This document shows positions 22,867 to 29,168 of a stretch of 40,449 nt of DNA, piece after piece; within the stretch, counting starts at the first letter, position 1, and the number at the start of each line of letters is the position of its first letter. The stretch comes from Ruminiclostridium sp. (GTDB lineage Bacteria > Bacillota > Clostridia > Oscillospirales > Ruminococcaceae). The position numbers were made by a program, and so were the translations under genes. The DNA is taken from NCBI GenBank assembly GCA_017635095.1, contig JAGBMA010000066.1, positions 1-40,449 of the forward strand, written 5' to 3'. The notes beneath the pieces were generated by a model. It worked only from the letters and a program-made list of their open reading frames with translations, made no database searches and had not been told where the DNA came from.

Positions 22867-22909
22867 AAGCTCTCCGGCGAAGAAAGTTCGTTTCCGGAGA
22901 GCTTTTTTG
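22867..22909 (+). terminator. Intrinsic terminator after the cyclase gene
   Basis: AAGCTCTCCGG (22867-22877) pairs perfectly with CCGGAGAGCTT (22894-22904), followed by TTTT. Confidence 0.9.
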
Positions 22910-22920
22910 TATGCTGTGTA

Positions 22921-22949
22921 TTGAAAAATCGCTGAAAGTGTGGTATAAT
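22921..22949 (+). promoter_or_regulatory. Promoter of the salvage operon
   Basis: TTGAAA (22921-22926) and a perfect TATAAT (22944-22949) are 17 bp apart, 12 bp after the preceding terminator. It appears to drive the six genes to 28946. Confidence 0.8.
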
Positions 22950-22986: not shown

Positions 22987-23832
22987 ATGACACCTCAGGA
23001 AAAACTTGCAAAATGTTACGAAAGCTTCAGAAATAAGATCGACTTTGTCCCGGAAGTTGCAATAATCCTCGGCTCCGGGCTCGGCGCGCTCGCGGACGAG
23101 ATAGATATCAAGGCTGTTCTTGATTATAAGGACATCGAAGGGTTCCCTCAGTCCACTGTCCCCGGGCACAAGGGAAGATTCGTATTTGGCTTTATGGACG
23201 GTGTACCGGTGGTGATAATGCAGGGAAGAGTGCATTATTACGAGGGCTACCCGATGCAGGACGTTGTGCTTCCTACGAGACTTATGAAGCTAATGGGCGC
23301 GAAGGTGCTTTTCGTTACAAATGCAAGTGGCGCCTGCAACGCGGATTTCTCCGCGGGCGACTTCATGCTCATTACCGATCAGATCGCTAATTTCGTTCCG
23401 AGCCCGCTTATCGGCGCGAATTTTGATGAGCTCGGGACACGTTTTCCGGATATGCATGAGATATACGACAAAGATCTCCGGGATATTGTCGCAAAGACTG
23501 CGAAAGACCTGGATATAAAGCTTCAGCAGGGCGTTTATATCCAGCTCACCGGTCCGAATTTCGAGTCGCCGTCGGAAGTGAGAATGTGCCGTATGCTCGG
23601 AGCCGACGCGGTGGGAATGAGCACAGCCTGTGAGACTATCGCGGCAAATCACGCGGGAATGAAGATAGTCGGCATCTCCTGTGTCTGCAATCTCGGCTGC
23701 GGGCTTACCGACAACCCTCTTACGCATGAGGAAGTAATGGAGGCCTCAAACAAGGCAGCGCCTCTGTTCAAGAAGCTTATACGCACATCTGTGGTGAACA
23801 TATACAGCTATCTGGAGGAGAGTAAGAATTGA
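22987..23832 (+). CDS. punA: Purine nucleoside phosphorylase
   Basis: A 281-residue trimeric-type phosphorylase that splits purine nucleosides with phosphate to base and (deoxy)ribose-1-phosphate. Motifs include [59 protein letters not shown] and [17 protein letters not shown]. The Asn in [10 protein letters not shown] and the His in LTHEEV match the residues that select 6-oxopurines and contact the 5'-hydroxyl in the family. It is first in an operon with MtnA and an MTA/SAH deaminase, so methylthioinosine is a possible substrate besides inosine and guanosine, although the conserved His argues for ordinary nucleosides. Confidence 0.94.
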
Positions 23833-24878
23833 AGCCGGAAAACGTAGTATTGTCCGAAGACGGAAAGAGCGTTGTAATTATAGATCAGACGCGGCTCCCT
23901 CTCCATACCGAATATCTTGCGCTTTCACAGCCGGAAGAGTTTTACGACGCCATACATGAGCTTAAAGTTCGCGGCGCGCCGGCTATCGGTATCTGCGCAG
24001 GAATGGGGCTTTATGTCGCAGCGGAACATTTTGGTGAGCATAACGAGGAAAAGTTCCTGAGCGAGCTCCATAATGTATCGGCATTTCTGAATTCTTCCCG
24101 CCCCACAGCCGTTAATTTGAAGCACGCGCTTGACCGTGTAGAGAATGCAGCCCATTCCATGCGCGGCAAAGGGACGGACGCTATGCTCGGCGAGATGCGG
24201 CGGGAGTGTATCGCGGTTCAGGAAGAAGATATCGCTATGTGTAAAGCCATCTCAGAGTATGGTCTTACTCTCGTAAAGAACGGATACGGGATCCTCACAC
24301 ACTGCAACGCCGGTCCGCTTGCGACTTCGTGCTATGGCACAGGTCTCGGGACGCTCCTTCTCGGTAAAGAGCGCGGATATACATTCCGGGCTTACGTTGA
24401 CGAGACGCGTCCGCTTCTCCAGGGCGCAAGGCTCACTGCATACGAACTGGACAAGGCTGGGATTGACGTTACGCTGATATGCGACAATATGGCAAGCATA
24501 GTCATGAAGCAGGGAAAAGTGAACGCTTGCTTTGTTGGCTGTGACAGAGTCGCTGCAAACGGAGATACCGCAAACAAGATCGGTACGAGCGGAGTTGCGG
24601 TGCTTGCAAAGCATTACGGTATCCCGTTCTATGTTTTCTGCCCCTCAACAACGATAGATTTTAACTGCAGGACCGGCGAGGATATACAGATAGAAGAGCG
24701 GGATCCCGGTGAGATAAAGACAAAGTTTTTCAGAGAGCCGGTAGCTCCGGAGAATGTAAAATGCTTCAATCCGGCATTTGATGTCACCGACTCGTCTCTG
24801 ATAACAGCCATTATCACCGAGAAAGGCATCTGTACCGCGCCGTATACACAAAGTCTCAGGATTTGCATGAAGGAGTGA
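23829..24878 (+). CDS. mtnA: Methylthioribose-1-phosphate isomerase
   Basis: A 349-residue member of the MtnA/eIF2B-alpha family that converts 5-methylthioribose-1-phosphate to methylthioribulose-1-phosphate. Diagnostic features are the substrate loop [15 protein letters not shown], the catalytic Cys159 in [10 protein letters not shown] and Asp239 in [17 protein letters not shown], plus [19 protein letters not shown]. The start is TTG 23829, inside the TTGA overlap with the punA stop, supported by GGAGGAG 8 nt upstream. Close coupling to a phosphorylase and a deaminase points to methylthioadenosine salvage. No mtnK, mtnN, mtnB, mtnC or mtnD homologue is in the window. Confidence 0.93.
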
Positions 24879-24882
24879 CGGG

Positions 24883-25323
24883 ATGAGATTTATAAACAGC
24901 GTTATCAGGGAGGATATTGCCCGCGAATTCCCCGGGCTCAATATTGAGTTCAGTGAGAATGACGGTGCTCTTGACGCCGTTTTCAGAAACGATGCAGGCT
25001 GCGATCTTTTTCTGCATTTCGGGGAAAGGCTTACCCTTTGTTTTGACAAGTGGAGAAGCGATTATCTGCTTACAGATGATGAATATGAGCGTCTTTTGTG
25101 GGATATAAGGGACATCGTTCACAAGAATGCTTATGCTGTCTCCGTAATGGTGGGAAGCAACCTGTACCTGTCCTATCTTACCCGTGTCGAGATCGGGAAC
25201 ATTGATGATTTCATGGACGACGATCCTGTCGGGAACGCCGGGCTCAGAAGAACGGGTGCGGTAATAAGCTGTGTGTGCTTCGATGACAGCCGCACAAAAA
25301 GATTTGTTTTGGAAAAGGAATGA
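24883..25323 (+). CDS. Unrecognised 146-residue protein in the salvage operon
   Basis: I do not recognise this protein. It is 146 residues, acidic and soluble, with no signal peptide or membrane helix. Visible features are MRFINSVIREDIAREFPGLN, a beta-rich middle (GCDLFLHFGERLTLCFDKWRSDYLL), the helix TDDEYERLLWDIRDIVH, and a C-terminal strand segment. It begins 5 bp after the mtnA stop, with AGGAG spanning the junction, and ends 5 bp before the likely mtaD start, so it is translated with the salvage enzymes. Its conserved operon placement would suggest a small accessory or regulatory role, but nothing in the sequence shows an activity. Confidence 0.8.
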   Translation: MRFINSVIREDIAREFPGLNIEFSENDGALDAVFRNDAGCDLFLHFGERLTLCFDKWRSDYLLTDDEYERLLWDIRDIVHKNAYAVSVMVGSNLYLSYLTRVEIGNIDDFMDDDPVGNAGLRRTGAVISCVCFDDSRTKRFVLEKE

Positions 25324-25328
25324 AGATA

Positions 25329-26600
25329 ATGAAAACAAGGTTTTATAATGCAAGAATACTCACTCTGAACGGTAACATAGATATAGCCGACGGAGAACTC
25401 CACGTTGACGGCGACAAGATATCATACATAGGAAGCGGGAACGGAGACTCCGGATTTGACCGGGAGATAGACTGCAAGGGAAATGTGCTCATGCCGGGAT
25501 TCAAGAATGCACACACCCACACTGCCATGACATTCCTGCGTTCTTTTGCGGACGATCTTCCTCTGCAGGAATGGCTCTACAACAGAGTTTTCCCTATGGA
25601 GGCAAAGCTCACGCCGGACAGGGTGTACTGGTTCTCTCGCCTTGGTATCCTTGAGTACCTCACGAGCGGTATAACCGCAAACTTTGATATGTACATGAAG
25701 ACCGACGCTATCGTGAACGCAAGTATCGACAGCGGTTTCAGGACCGTGCTCTGCGATTCGATGAACAACTTCGGGGGAAGTGTGGAGCAGATGGAGCTGG
25801 ACTACGATAAATTCAGCAAAGTGGATCCGCTTATCTCCTATAACCTCGGTTTTCACGCCGAATATACCACAAGCGCCGAGCTGATGAAGCAGCTTTCCGA
25901 CCTTGCAAACAGGCGGAAGCTCCCGGTATTCGTTCACAGCTCGGAGACAAAGAAGGAAGTCGATGAGTGCATAGAGCGCTACGGAATGACGCCCACTGAG
26001 TACCTCGACAGCATCGGTATGTACAACTATGGAGGAGGCGGTTATCACTGCGTCTGGATGAGCGACAAGGACTTTGAGATATACAAGGAAAGGAAGCTTT
26101 TTGCAGTTACCAACCCCGCTTCAAACTTAAAGCTCGCAAGCGGTATCGCTCCGATATGCAGATACCTCAGAGAGGGTATCCCGGTGGCTATAGGTACCGA
26201 CGGTCCTGCAAGCAACAACTGCCTTGATATGTTCAGGGAGATGTTCCTTGTGACAGGTCTGCAGAAAGTCAAGGAGTATGACGCGGAAGCCTGCGACGCA
26301 GCCGAAGTTCTGAAAATGGCTTGTGTGAACGGCGCTCACGCAATGGGTCTTACGGACTGTGATGTTCTTGAAGTCGGCAAACAGGCCGATATTATCGAGA
26401 TAGATCTTCACAGACCGAATATGCAGCCCCTCAACAATATCGCGAAGAACATAGTTTATGCCGGAAGCAAGGAGAACGTCAAGCGTACTATGGTAGCCGG
26501 GAAGATCCTTTATGAGTGCGGCGAGTTTTTCGTGGGAGAAGATCCGGAAAAGATCTATGAAAAAGCCAATACCATGATAAAAGAGATGTGCAATGAATAA
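25329..26600 (+). CDS. mtaD: 5-methylthioadenosine/S-adenosylhomocysteine deaminase
   Basis: A 423-residue amidohydrolase-superfamily enzyme expected to deaminate MTA to methylthioinosine and SAH to S-inosylhomocysteine. Metal-binding and catalytic positions are visible: HTHTAM, LGFHAEYT, PVFVHSSETKKEVDE, YHCVWMSDKD and GTDGPASNNCLDMF. The N-terminal composite domain (ARILTLNGNIDIADGELHVDGDKISYIG) is typical. ATG 25329 was preferred to the overlapping ATG 25320 because AAAAGGA abuts the earlier one. It lies in an operon with a phosphorylase and MtnA, which supports MTA as a physiological substrate. Confidence 0.9.
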   Translation: MKTRFYNARILTLNGNIDIADGELHVDGDKISYIGSGNGDSGFDREIDCKGNVLMPGFKNAHTHTAMTFLRSFADDLPLQEWLYNRVFPMEAKLTPDRVYWFSRLGILEYLTSGITANFDMYMKTDAIVNASIDSGFRTVLCDSMNNFGGSVEQMELDYDKFSKVDPLISYNLGFHAEYTTSAELMKQLSDLANRRKLPVFVHSSETKKEVDECIERYGMTPTEYLDSIGMYNYGGGGYHCVWMSDKDFEIYKERKLFAVTNPASNLKLASGIAPICRYLREGIPVAIGTDGPASNNCLDMFREMFLVTGLQKVKEYDAEACDAAEVLKMACVNGAHAMGLTDCDVLEVGKQADIIEIDLHRPNMQPLNNIAKNIVYAGSKENVKRTMVAGKILYECGEFFVGEDPEKIYEKANTMIKEMCNE

Positions 26601-27930
26601 GTTCGATCTTCCCGAGGGTGTTGAAGCGATAATCGAAAGGCTGTACGAGTGCGGGTATGAAGCTTATGCAGTTGGTGGGTGCGTTCGTAATTTCATGCTC
26701 GGGACAGAGCCCAAGGATTATGATGTGACCACGAGTGCAAGACCGGAAGAGATAAAGCAGGCGCTTGAAGGTTTCCGCATCATTGATACCGGCATAAAGT
26801 ACGGCACCGTCACCGTGATCTCACGGGGAATGCCGATAGAAGTGACCACATACCGCGTTGACGGTGATTACAGTGACAACCGCAGACCCGAAAACGTTAC
26901 GTTCACCACAAAGCTTGCTGAAGATCTCAAAAGACGAGATTTTACCGTGAATGCCATGGCTTACAGTTCCCGCACGGGAATCATTGATATCTTCGGCGGA
27001 CGTGCGGATCTGCAGAACGGTATAATACGCGCCATCGGCAATCCTGATGAACGGTTCAGAGAGGACGGTCTGCGCATATTAAGAGCGCTAAGGTTCGCTT
27101 CATGCTACGGATTGAAGATAGAGCCCGCCACTGCAGATTCGATACACAGAAACAGAAAGCTCCTCGAAAACATATCCGGCGAGCGAATTGCCGCCGAGCT
27201 TAACAGGCTTCTGTGCGGTGAATGCGGGAACATTCTCAGGGAATACTATGATGTGATCTCGGTTTTTCTCCCGGAATTTGCAGCCTGCCGCGGGTTTGAA
27301 CAGCACACGAAGTACCATGACCGGGACGTTCTTGAGCACATTATAGGAACTGTAACCGCGATCGAACCGAAGCTTCATCTGCGGCTCACGATGCTGCTTC
27401 ACGACATCGGAAAACCGCTGTACTTTACCATGAGTGAAGACGGCGTAGGTCATTTCAAGGGTCATGCAAAGGGCAGTACAGCTATTGCGGAAAGCTTTTT
27501 CAAGCGGCTCCGATACAGCAATGCTGTTGCAGAGCGGGTTTCCAAGCTTGTTCAGACCCATGATATACTTATCGCGGACGATGAGCATCTGATAAAACGA
27601 TATCTGAACAAATACGGCGAAGAGATGTTCTTCGATATGATAAAGGTGCATATCGCGGACGACATGGCGAAAGCACCGGAGTGCAGAGAGCGGATAAAGA
27701 CATACCGCGCCGCGGCTGAGACAGCGAGAAAGATACTTGCACAGAAAGAGTGCTTTTCGCTGAAACAGCTTGCTGTGAACGGGAATGACATAAGAGCGCT
27801 CGGATATGAGGGCGCGGAGATCGGTGACAAACTCGGGATACTGCTCGGGCTGGTCATTGACGGAAAATGTGTGAACGAAAGAGATGCGCTTCTGGGTGCA
27901 TTGACACAAAAGAGCGGAGGAGACCAATGA
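26593..27930 (+). CDS. cca: CCA-adding tRNA nucleotidyltransferase
   Basis: A 445-residue class II nucleotidyltransferase that adds or repairs the 3' CCA end of tRNA. The head shows AYAVGGCVRNFMLG, the metal-binding DYDVTTSA, RRDFTVNAMAYS, and the RNA-binding region ERFREDGLRILRALRFAS. A C-terminal HD domain is present (LLHDIGKPLYFTM, KGHAKGSTAIAESFF), as in many Firmicutes enzymes. The start overlaps the deaminase stop by 8 bp. A poly(A) polymerase activity cannot be excluded from sequence, but a CCA role fits the length and motifs. Confidence 0.92.
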   Translation: MNKFDLPEGVEAIIERLYECGYEAYAVGGCVRNFMLGTEPKDYDVTTSARPEEIKQALEGFRIIDTGIKYGTVTVISRGMPIEVTTYRVDGDYSDNRRPENVTFTTKLAEDLKRRDFTVNAMAYSSRTGIIDIFGGRADLQNGIIRAIGNPDERFREDGLRILRALRFASCYGLKIEPATADSIHRNRKLLENISGERIAAELNRLLCGECGNILREYYDVISVFLPEFAACRGFEQHTKYHDRDVLEHIIGTVTAIEPKLHLRLTMLLHDIGKPLYFTMSEDGVGHFKGHAKGSTAIAESFFKRLRYSNAVAERVSKLVQTHDILIADDEHLIKRYLNKYGEEMFFDMIKVHIADDMAKAPECRERIKTYRAAAETARKILAQKECFSLKQLAVNGNDIRALGYEGAEIGDKLGILLGLVIDGKCVNERDALLGALTQKSGGDQ

Positions 27931-28950: not shown

Positions 28951-28980
28951 GACCGATGTTATCGTTTGATAACATCGGTC
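28951..28980. terminator. Terminator hairpin, left copy of a 29-bp duplication
   Basis: A perfect 13-bp stem with loop GTTT (arms 28951-28963 and 28968-28980). On the plus strand no T-run follows, but on the minus strand it is followed by TTTCTTATTT, so it can end transcripts from the CBS gene. The same 29 bases recur exactly at 29133-29161. Confidence 0.8.
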
Positions 28981-29132: not shown

Positions 29133-29168
29133 GACCGATGTTATCGTTTGATAACATCGGTTTTTTTA
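29133..29168 (+). terminator. Terminator hairpin, right copy of the duplication
   Basis: The same hairpin as at 28951, followed here on the plus strand by TTTTTTT, so this copy is the effective stop for the salvage-mreB operon. Confidence 0.85.

Follow-up and report, generated by a model that had tools for sequence, protein, structure and literature searches.

Most descriptions to date of a route that recycles the adenosyl by-products of S-adenosylmethionine (SAM) by deaminating them first come from archaea and thermophilic bacteria. S-adenosylhomocysteine (SAH) inhibits methyltransferases and 5'-deoxyadenosine inhibits radical-SAM enzymes, and because both inhibit SAM-dependent enzymes, cells need to clear them. 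Inhibition by 5'-deoxyadenosine is also reported in PMC6079011. Here we describe an operon of a Ruminiclostridium sp. that encodes a purine nucleoside phosphorylase (PNP), the methylthioribose-1-phosphate isomerase MtnA and an amidohydrolase resembling deaminases of methylthioadenosine (MTA), SAH and 5'-deoxyadenosine. The operon lies in a 40,449-nucleotide stretch of DNA, referred to below as the window, which is contig C222 of a 3.83-Mb draft genome (236 contigs, 98.3% complete, 4.2% contamination).

The route of Methanocaldococcus jannaschii, comprising DadD, S-inosylhomocysteine hydrolase, methylthioinosine (MTI) phosphorylase and MtnA, proceeds as we propose here, with deamination first and inosine-type cleavage thereafter; its hydrolase prefers S-inosylhomocysteine, and phosphorolysis yields 5-deoxyribose-1-phosphate and methylthioribose-1-phosphate (PMC10978960, PMC6302742). 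The present host, however, is clostridial rather than archaeal, its phosphorylase is a PNP of the inosine/guanosine type and not of the MTI phosphorylase family, and phosphorylase, isomerase and deaminase form one operon (the comparison does not extend to the gene arrangement of M. jannaschii). Thermotoga maritima has TM0936, an MTA/SAH deaminase of the same superfamily as the window deaminase, and an SAH hydrolase more active on S-inosylhomocysteine, as predicted for the SahH of our genome, yet an MTAN homologue is reported there (PMC10978960), whereas none above cut-off is found here. In Pseudomonas aeruginosa an MTA deaminase and an MTI phosphorylase deaminate and then phosphorolyse to hypoxanthine and methylthioribose-1-phosphate (PMC6302742); in contrast, the window phosphorylase reaches 50.4 bits on the MTI phosphorylase model NF006599, well below the cut-off of 223. 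Finally, 5-deoxyribose salvage (DrdK/DrdI/DrdA) and the dihydroxyacetone phosphate (DHAP) shunt combine an MtnA-type isomerase with a class II aldolase, as here, and a phosphorylase variant has been proposed from gene clustering for Clostridium phytofermentans (PMC6079011). These differ from the present system, in which no kinase scores above cut-off, a deaminase precedes the phosphorylase, and the candidate aldolase is on another contig. From the routes of M. jannaschii and T. maritima it differs by its ordinary PNP, its operon arrangement and its clostridial hosts. No description of this operon type was found in searches of an open-licence collection that leaves out most subscription journals. 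The predicted function resembles that of the M. jannaschii and T. maritima routes, with an isomerase-aldolase end like that of 5-deoxyribose salvage and the DHAP shunt.

A putative deaminate-first operon

We propose, with a probability of roughly 60%, that this operon forms the centre of a deaminate-first hub through which SAM's adenosyl by-products are processed. The proposal builds on observed gene identities, gene order and its recurrence, presence and absence of genes, the HxExK motif of the hydrolase and co-occurrence across genomes, from which every substrate is assigned by inference. The amidohydrolase would convert SAH to S-inosylhomocysteine, 5'-deoxyadenosine released by radical-SAM enzymes to 5'-deoxyinosine, and any MTA to methylthioinosine. 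SahH, encoded on contig C79, would split S-inosylhomocysteine into homocysteine and inosine, and PNP would cleave inosine to hypoxanthine and ribose-1-phosphate, and 5'-deoxyinosine and methylthioinosine to hypoxanthine and the matching sugar 1-phosphates. MtnA would isomerize 5-deoxyribose-1-phosphate and methylthioribose-1-phosphate to the corresponding ribulose-1-phosphates, and a class II aldolase encoded elsewhere in the genome, perhaps the one on contig C139, would probably cleave these 5'-modified ribulose-1-phosphates to DHAP and an aldehyde, either acetaldehyde or methylthioacetaldehyde. All of these activities are predicted from genes alone. The SAH arm appears likely, the 5'-deoxyadenosine arm has slightly better than even chances, and the assignment of the C139 aldolase to the route is tentative.

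The operon, the site preceding it and the next gene downstream are as follows:

22921..22949, plus strand: TTGAAA-17-TATAAT, a promoter-like site that agrees with the consensus at 11 of 12 positions and has an extended -10
22987..23832, plus strand: PNP, purine nucleoside phosphorylase I, inosine/guanosine type, 281 amino acids (TIGR01700)
23829..24878, plus strand: mtnA, methylthioribose-1-phosphate isomerase, 349 amino acids, TTG start (TIGR00512)
24883..25323, plus strand: open reading frame (ORF) of 146 amino acids with no family match in the Pfam and NCBIfam scans
25320..26600, plus strand: amidohydrolase, putative MTA/SAH/5'-deoxyadenosine deaminase type, 426 amino acids (models below cut-off, likeness to TM0936)
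26593-27930, plus strand: CCA tRNA nucleotidyltransferase, next gene downstream of the deaminase

PNP, mtnA, the small ORF and the amidohydrolase gene stand head to tail, with overlaps or gaps of 4 nucleotides each: the TTG start of mtnA shares 4 nucleotides with the PNP stop, and the small ORF begins 4 nucleotides past mtnA and overlaps the deaminase start by 4. The initial annotation had placed PNP, MtnA and deaminase in one close-packed run, and they are located accordingly; it did not mention the 146-residue ORF. The product of mtnA passes TIGR00512 (396.6 bits, cut-off 279) and PNP passes TIGR01700 (327.1 bits, cut-off 293.35), whereas the NF006599 score given above rules out an MTI phosphorylase by family. 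The active-site residues of PNP, including Asn235 and His247, are kept in alignment with bovine PNP 1fxu and other solved PNPs; His247 corresponds to the histidine that contacts the 5'-hydroxyl. This kept histidine, which the initial annotation regarded as its weak point, becomes understandable if inosine is a regular substrate of PNP. It fits an enzyme that also needs to take inosine and, alone, neither permits nor bars 5'-modified substrates.

Hydrolase, deaminase and genome inventory

Hydrolases with the HxExK motif prefer S-inosylhomocysteine, whereas those with HxTxE/Q prefer SAH, and the HxExK lysine can form a bond with the C6 oxygen of inosine; most reports of HxExK concern Methanococci, Thermococci and certain further groups (PMC10978960). 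We find that the C79 SahH carries this fingerprint, with HLEAK at residues 51-55 (SVHLEAKTAY), and that its closest match in the Protein Data Bank (PDB) is the S-inosyl-L-homocysteine hydrolase 7r3a. It is thus predicted, from these marks, to prefer S-inosylhomocysteine. HxExK is present in all 26 readable SahHs among the 27 of the family, the remaining one (L176) being truncated at a contig end before the motif region, and likewise in the SahH of the named soil bin L150.

The best NCBIfam models of the deaminase are two named N-ethylammeline chlorohydrolase, followed by 5'-deoxyadenosine deaminase. It scores 238.3 bits against NF012037 (cut-off 779) and 307.4 bits against NF005557 (cut-off 522), and because these scores lie below cut-off we describe it as of the MTA/SAH/5'-deoxyadenosine type and file it under neither model. 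Its closest PDB match is TM0936 (1p1m), and the family members TM0936 and DadD favour 5'-modified adenosines. His65, His67, His206, His243 and Asp294, which correspond to the amidohydrolase metal site, are invariant in all 35 aligned deaminase rows of more than 45% identity. A plasmid search with the deaminase (678 records) returned only matches below 60% identity.

A search of the genome with PF01048 yields two proteins only, the window PNP and a uridine phosphorylase. None of MtnN, MTAP and DeoD is found above cut-off in the whole genome; the one sub-threshold match to the MtnN model (E 4e-5) is consistent with the uridine phosphorylase, which scores 24 bits. For MtnK no protein exceeds the cut-off (275), two fragments scoring 33 and 25 bits. 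LuxS and an Add-type adenosine deaminase are likewise not found in the genome. The absence of nucleosidase and kinase that the initial annotation noted for the window extends, at these cut-offs, to the whole genome, and the ordinary mtnN-mtnK route, whose presence it held to contradict its proposal, can be set aside, neither gene being found above cut-off. AdoMet decarboxylase (PF02675) is not found in the genome (seven candidates scored, none at E<=0.001), and therefore the usual polyamine source of MTA seems to be missing; other sources of MTA were not searched. A class III ribonucleotide reductase, NrdD, is also encoded in the window. NrdD requires a radical-SAM activase, which produces 5'-deoxyadenosine, and its presence is counted in favour of the proposed hub.

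The genome holds three genes of the class II aldolase family (PF00596). One of them, the 227-residue C139 aldolase, is 42-51% identical to the cluster-linked aldolases of relatives L049, L048, L136 and L044 and 26-30% identical to the two other class II aldolase genes of its own genome. It keeps the Glu and His positions of the zinc ligands. No curated cut-off is passed: on the MtnB model it reaches 70.8 bits (cut-off 137.05; of the three own PF00596 proteins, this one was scanned). The initial annotation had suggested an anaerobic aldolase shunt, and this idea gains from relatives L049, L136 and L150, in which a class II aldolase stands in the same cluster; the own candidate is off the contig of the operon. 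A radical-SAM activase-like gene immediately precedes the C139 aldolase gene in the same orientation (L036:6178-7905), a neighbour that makes a suggestive but weak link.

Gene grouping and co-occurrence in relatives

Deaminase loci were fetched from 45 of the 57 family genomes with a match at E<=1e-30, including all 26 with a close deaminase (more than 400 bits; G049, with a fragmented gene of which a piece is 72% identical, fell below this cut). Within 5 kb on the same strand, PNP is found at 25 of the 45 loci, an MtnA-like gene at 7, SahH at 5 and an aldolase at 3; 16 have none of these, one of which (L048) carries PNP and mtnA farther away in the same cluster. PNP also lies within 5 kb at 8 of 17 family mtnA loci, a count that takes in all of the 18 but that of G144. 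Given that PNP neighbours recur at both deaminase and mtnA loci, the grouping is more than chance. Among 22 MtnA loci of named genomes, which may overlap with the survey genomes and were not matched to them, 21 have an MtnA of more than 42% identity, and at 11 of these 21 both a PNP-family gene (no farther than 5 kb) and a deaminase (no farther than 8 kb) lie nearby. The recurrence of the gene order in related genomes, for which the initial annotation advised looking, is therefore found. The nearest named relative found is the Ruminococcus metagenome assembly RUG12593 (L131), with an MtnA 79% identical; to judge by the isolate name, it is of rumen origin.

Individual clusters join further parts of the proposed route. 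L168 and L169 carry SahH, PNP and deaminase side by side, and L154, L156 and L176 carry SahH next to the deaminase. The order in L049 is deaminase-PNP-mtnA-class II aldolase, while L136 has PNP, a zinc-type alcohol dehydrogenase, mtnA, a BMP-type ABC transporter, deaminase and aldolase. In L150 an MTAP-type phosphorylase, mtnA, the HxExK SahH, a class II aldolase and the deaminase stand in a row, which is the entire proposed set in one cluster, with a phosphorylase different from that of the window; it passes both the MTAP and the MTI phosphorylase cut-offs. A kinase form exists in the family as well, MtnK adjoining MtnA at 2 of the 17 mtnA loci (L041 and L044).

Two further arrangements were seen around MtnA-like genes. 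In L044 (L044:6060-14500) mtnK-mtnA is followed by a regulator-like gene, a class II aldolase, a PduP-like aldehyde dehydrogenase and small shell-like proteins; the set may form a compartment serving 5-deoxyribose or methylthioribose (regulator and microcompartment shell were identified by eye). In L199 (4237-8037) and L200 (4099-8743) a divergent MtnA-like gene, about 30% identical, occurs with deaminase, PNP and class II aldolase; it is a paralogue to which no substrate is assigned.

Across 148 family genomes, MtnN is present in 104, AdoMet decarboxylase (SpeD) in 60, the deaminase in 57 and SahH in 27. The p values that follow are from Fisher tests that take the genomes as independent although they are related, with no correction for kinship. 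Of the 26 close-deaminase genomes 19 carry SahH, against 8 of the 122 others (p 2e-12), and 26 of the 27 SahH genomes carry a deaminase match at E<=1e-30. MtnN shows the opposite pattern, exceeding its cut-off in 5/26 against 99/122 (p 3e-9). MtnA was counted in 18 genomes, two with partial genes, after five with divergent copies only (G043, G051, G061, G078, G086) were removed from the 23 matching the model; it occurs in 9/26 close-deaminase genomes and 9/122 others (p 7e-4). From these counts, replacement of MtnN goes with deaminase and hydrolase and not with MtnA.

The wider form of this picture is plausible, with a chance a little short of even. In a branch of gut and rumen Clostridia, MtnN may have been wholly replaced by a deaminate-first system in which one deaminase would gate SAH, 5'-deoxyadenosine and MTA, the later work would be divided between an HxExK hydrolase and a single ordinary PNP, and purine would be returned only as hypoxanthine; and in sister lineages that lack the hydrolase, the deaminase-linked PNP, having lost its 5'-hydroxyl histidine, may have become a dedicated 5'-deoxyinosine/methylthioinosine phosphorylase. 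If the deaminate-first reading is right, the route would also exist in rumen and gut clostridia, deaminase and hydrolase both being present in 26 of the 148 family genomes, and it would substitute for MtnN in cells presumably without the LuxS precursor.

Alternative readings and phosphorylase specificity

The initial annotation saw dedicated salvage of MTA, via methylthioinosine and MtnA to methylthioribulose-1-phosphate and an anaerobic aldolase shunt. Deamination followed by phosphorolysis has published precedents in P. aeruginosa and M. jannaschii (PMC6302742), the order mtnA-PNP-deaminase recurs, MtnN, MTAP and MtnK are not above cut-off in the genome, and AdoMet decarboxylase is commoner in close-deaminase genomes (16/26 against 44/122, p 0.026, uncorrected), so that MTA may be a substrate in other genomes. 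Yet the own genome has no detected AdoMet decarboxylase, and MtnA does not track it in the 148 genomes (8/18 with MtnA, 52/130 without, p 0.8), and the idea that MtnA follows polyamine synthesis is accordingly rejected; PNP is of the inosine type; and 17 of the 26 close-deaminase genomes lack MtnA. We therefore regard dedicated MTA salvage as unlikely. Of the earlier claim, the deaminase-phosphorylase-isomerase logic stands. MTA as the main substrate is not supported because of the missing decarboxylase and the lack of tracking, nor is a route standing alone, because deaminase and PNP occur mostly without MtnA and often with an HxExK hydrolase (19/26). The operon is real and functionally coherent, and its MTA label is to be broadened to SAM by-products, with SAH and 5'-deoxyadenosine first.

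Plain purine salvage, in which the amidohydrolase would be an adenosine deaminase, PNP would take inosine and MtnA would be a mere neighbour, would agree with the inosine/guanosine type of PNP, with the lack of an Add-type adenosine deaminase in the genome search and with the 19 of 25 PNP-linked deaminase loci that have no MtnA-like gene within 5 kb. It leaves unexplained, however, both the joint loss of MtnN and presence of an HxExK SahH and the occurrence of mtnA and aldolase in the same clusters, and members of the deaminase family such as TM0936 and DadD are generally known to prefer 5'-modified adenosines; we hold it to be improbable. Least probable is catabolism of imported 5'-deoxynucleosides as a carbon source, resembling the DHAP shunt of Escherichia coli. 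Both 5'-deoxynucleosides and 5-deoxyribose support growth of E. coli carrying mtnK-mtnA-ald2 (PMC10986504), and in L136 a BMP/PnrA-type substrate-binding protein, an ABC ATPase and a permease (Pfam) stand between mtnA and deaminase, an arrangement that L132 and L048 resemble by eye and by sequence cluster. The operon of the window, in contrast, has no transporter gene, and CCA transferase and MreB genes lie downstream.

The deaminate-first hub, which we prefer to these readings, has a number of observations weighing against it. The single-copy SahH gene is not near the operon, no readable SahH of the family has an alternative motif, so that there is no contrast inside the family, and the genome is a draft in 236 contigs. 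The deaminase passes no curated cut-off, and Arg136 and Arg148, which bind the SAH carboxylate in TM0936, have no counterpart in it, being aligned with a gap and a Ser, respectively. The C139 aldolase is only 30-35% identical to the cluster-linked aldolases of L042, L150 and L132. Among the 148 genomes, the weak association of the close deaminase with AdoMet decarboxylase favours MTA as substrate there; five of the 26 close-deaminase genomes retain MtnN, and in three (G032, G074, G146) SahH and MtnN are both missing, a case for which the model has no explanation. MtnA genomes fit poorly as well: MtnN is kept in 11/18 against 93/130 of the others (p 0.41), SahH occurs in 6/18 against 21/130 (p 0.10), and close deaminase and SahH without MtnN are combined in 5/18 only. 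Lastly, Plasmodium falciparum PNP has the equivalent histidine and accepts inosine and methylthioinosine to nearly the same extent (ratio 1.6), whereas Toxoplasma PNP shares this histidine and has negligible activity on methylthioinosine (PMC3885546). Because the two differ despite it, the histidine alone is not decisive for 5' specificity.

In the clade of deaminase- or mtnA-linked PNPs to which the window PNP belongs, the 5'-hydroxyl histidine is kept, and in other clades it is replaced. Among 29 family genomes, counted after exclusion of PNP rows of less than 80% coverage (e.g. L190), SahH is present in 11 of the 15 with the histidine and in 1 of the 14 without it (p 0.0005, raw count). On the tree this link comprises just three trait changes, which leaves a paired test powerless and likewise counts against the hub; loss of the histidine following absence of SahH, at which the raw count hints, is a claim that the tree cannot carry. 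The association is best treated as a lead. A natural series of PNPs, some keeping the histidine and others lacking it, is available for studying the evolution of 5' specificity. The loci of Lachnospiraceae bacterium CE91-St61 (L135:9053-9898) and Extibacter muris (L141:9080-9877), in the order mtnA-PNP-deaminase, encode PNPs 39-40% identical to that of the window and lacking this histidine. The PNP gene of RUG12593 (L131:277-997) is broken, with a stretch missing and a mid-gene frame change, real or an assembly error.

The 146-residue ORF has no Pfam match (to E 10) and no NCBIfam match. As a conserved member of the operon it was rejected: in the near relative L131 none was found in the interval from mtnA to the deaminase gene, and it is unlike the small ORFs near mtnA in L051 and L053. 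Promoter-like sites are not in excess in the region (7, against a mean of 6.6 in shuffles), and an 11-bp hairpin with a T run at 22867-22908, judged by eye, ends the upstream gene. No RNA family of Rfam reaches its gathering score in the window. The deaminase gene overlaps the CCA tRNA nucleotidyltransferase gene by 8 nucleotides, and the MreB gene follows, both in the direction of the operon. The spore genes GPR and SpoIIP are also encoded in the window; together with the kinship to RUG12593 they suggest that the host is an anaerobic clostridium. After mreB a 28-base palindromic hairpin (GACCGATGTTATC-4-GATAACATCGG) occurs twice, at 28951-28980 and 29133-29162, about 150 bases apart and flanking a GC-rich stretch, with none in 100 shuffles; a small repeat element or paired terminators are candidate readings.

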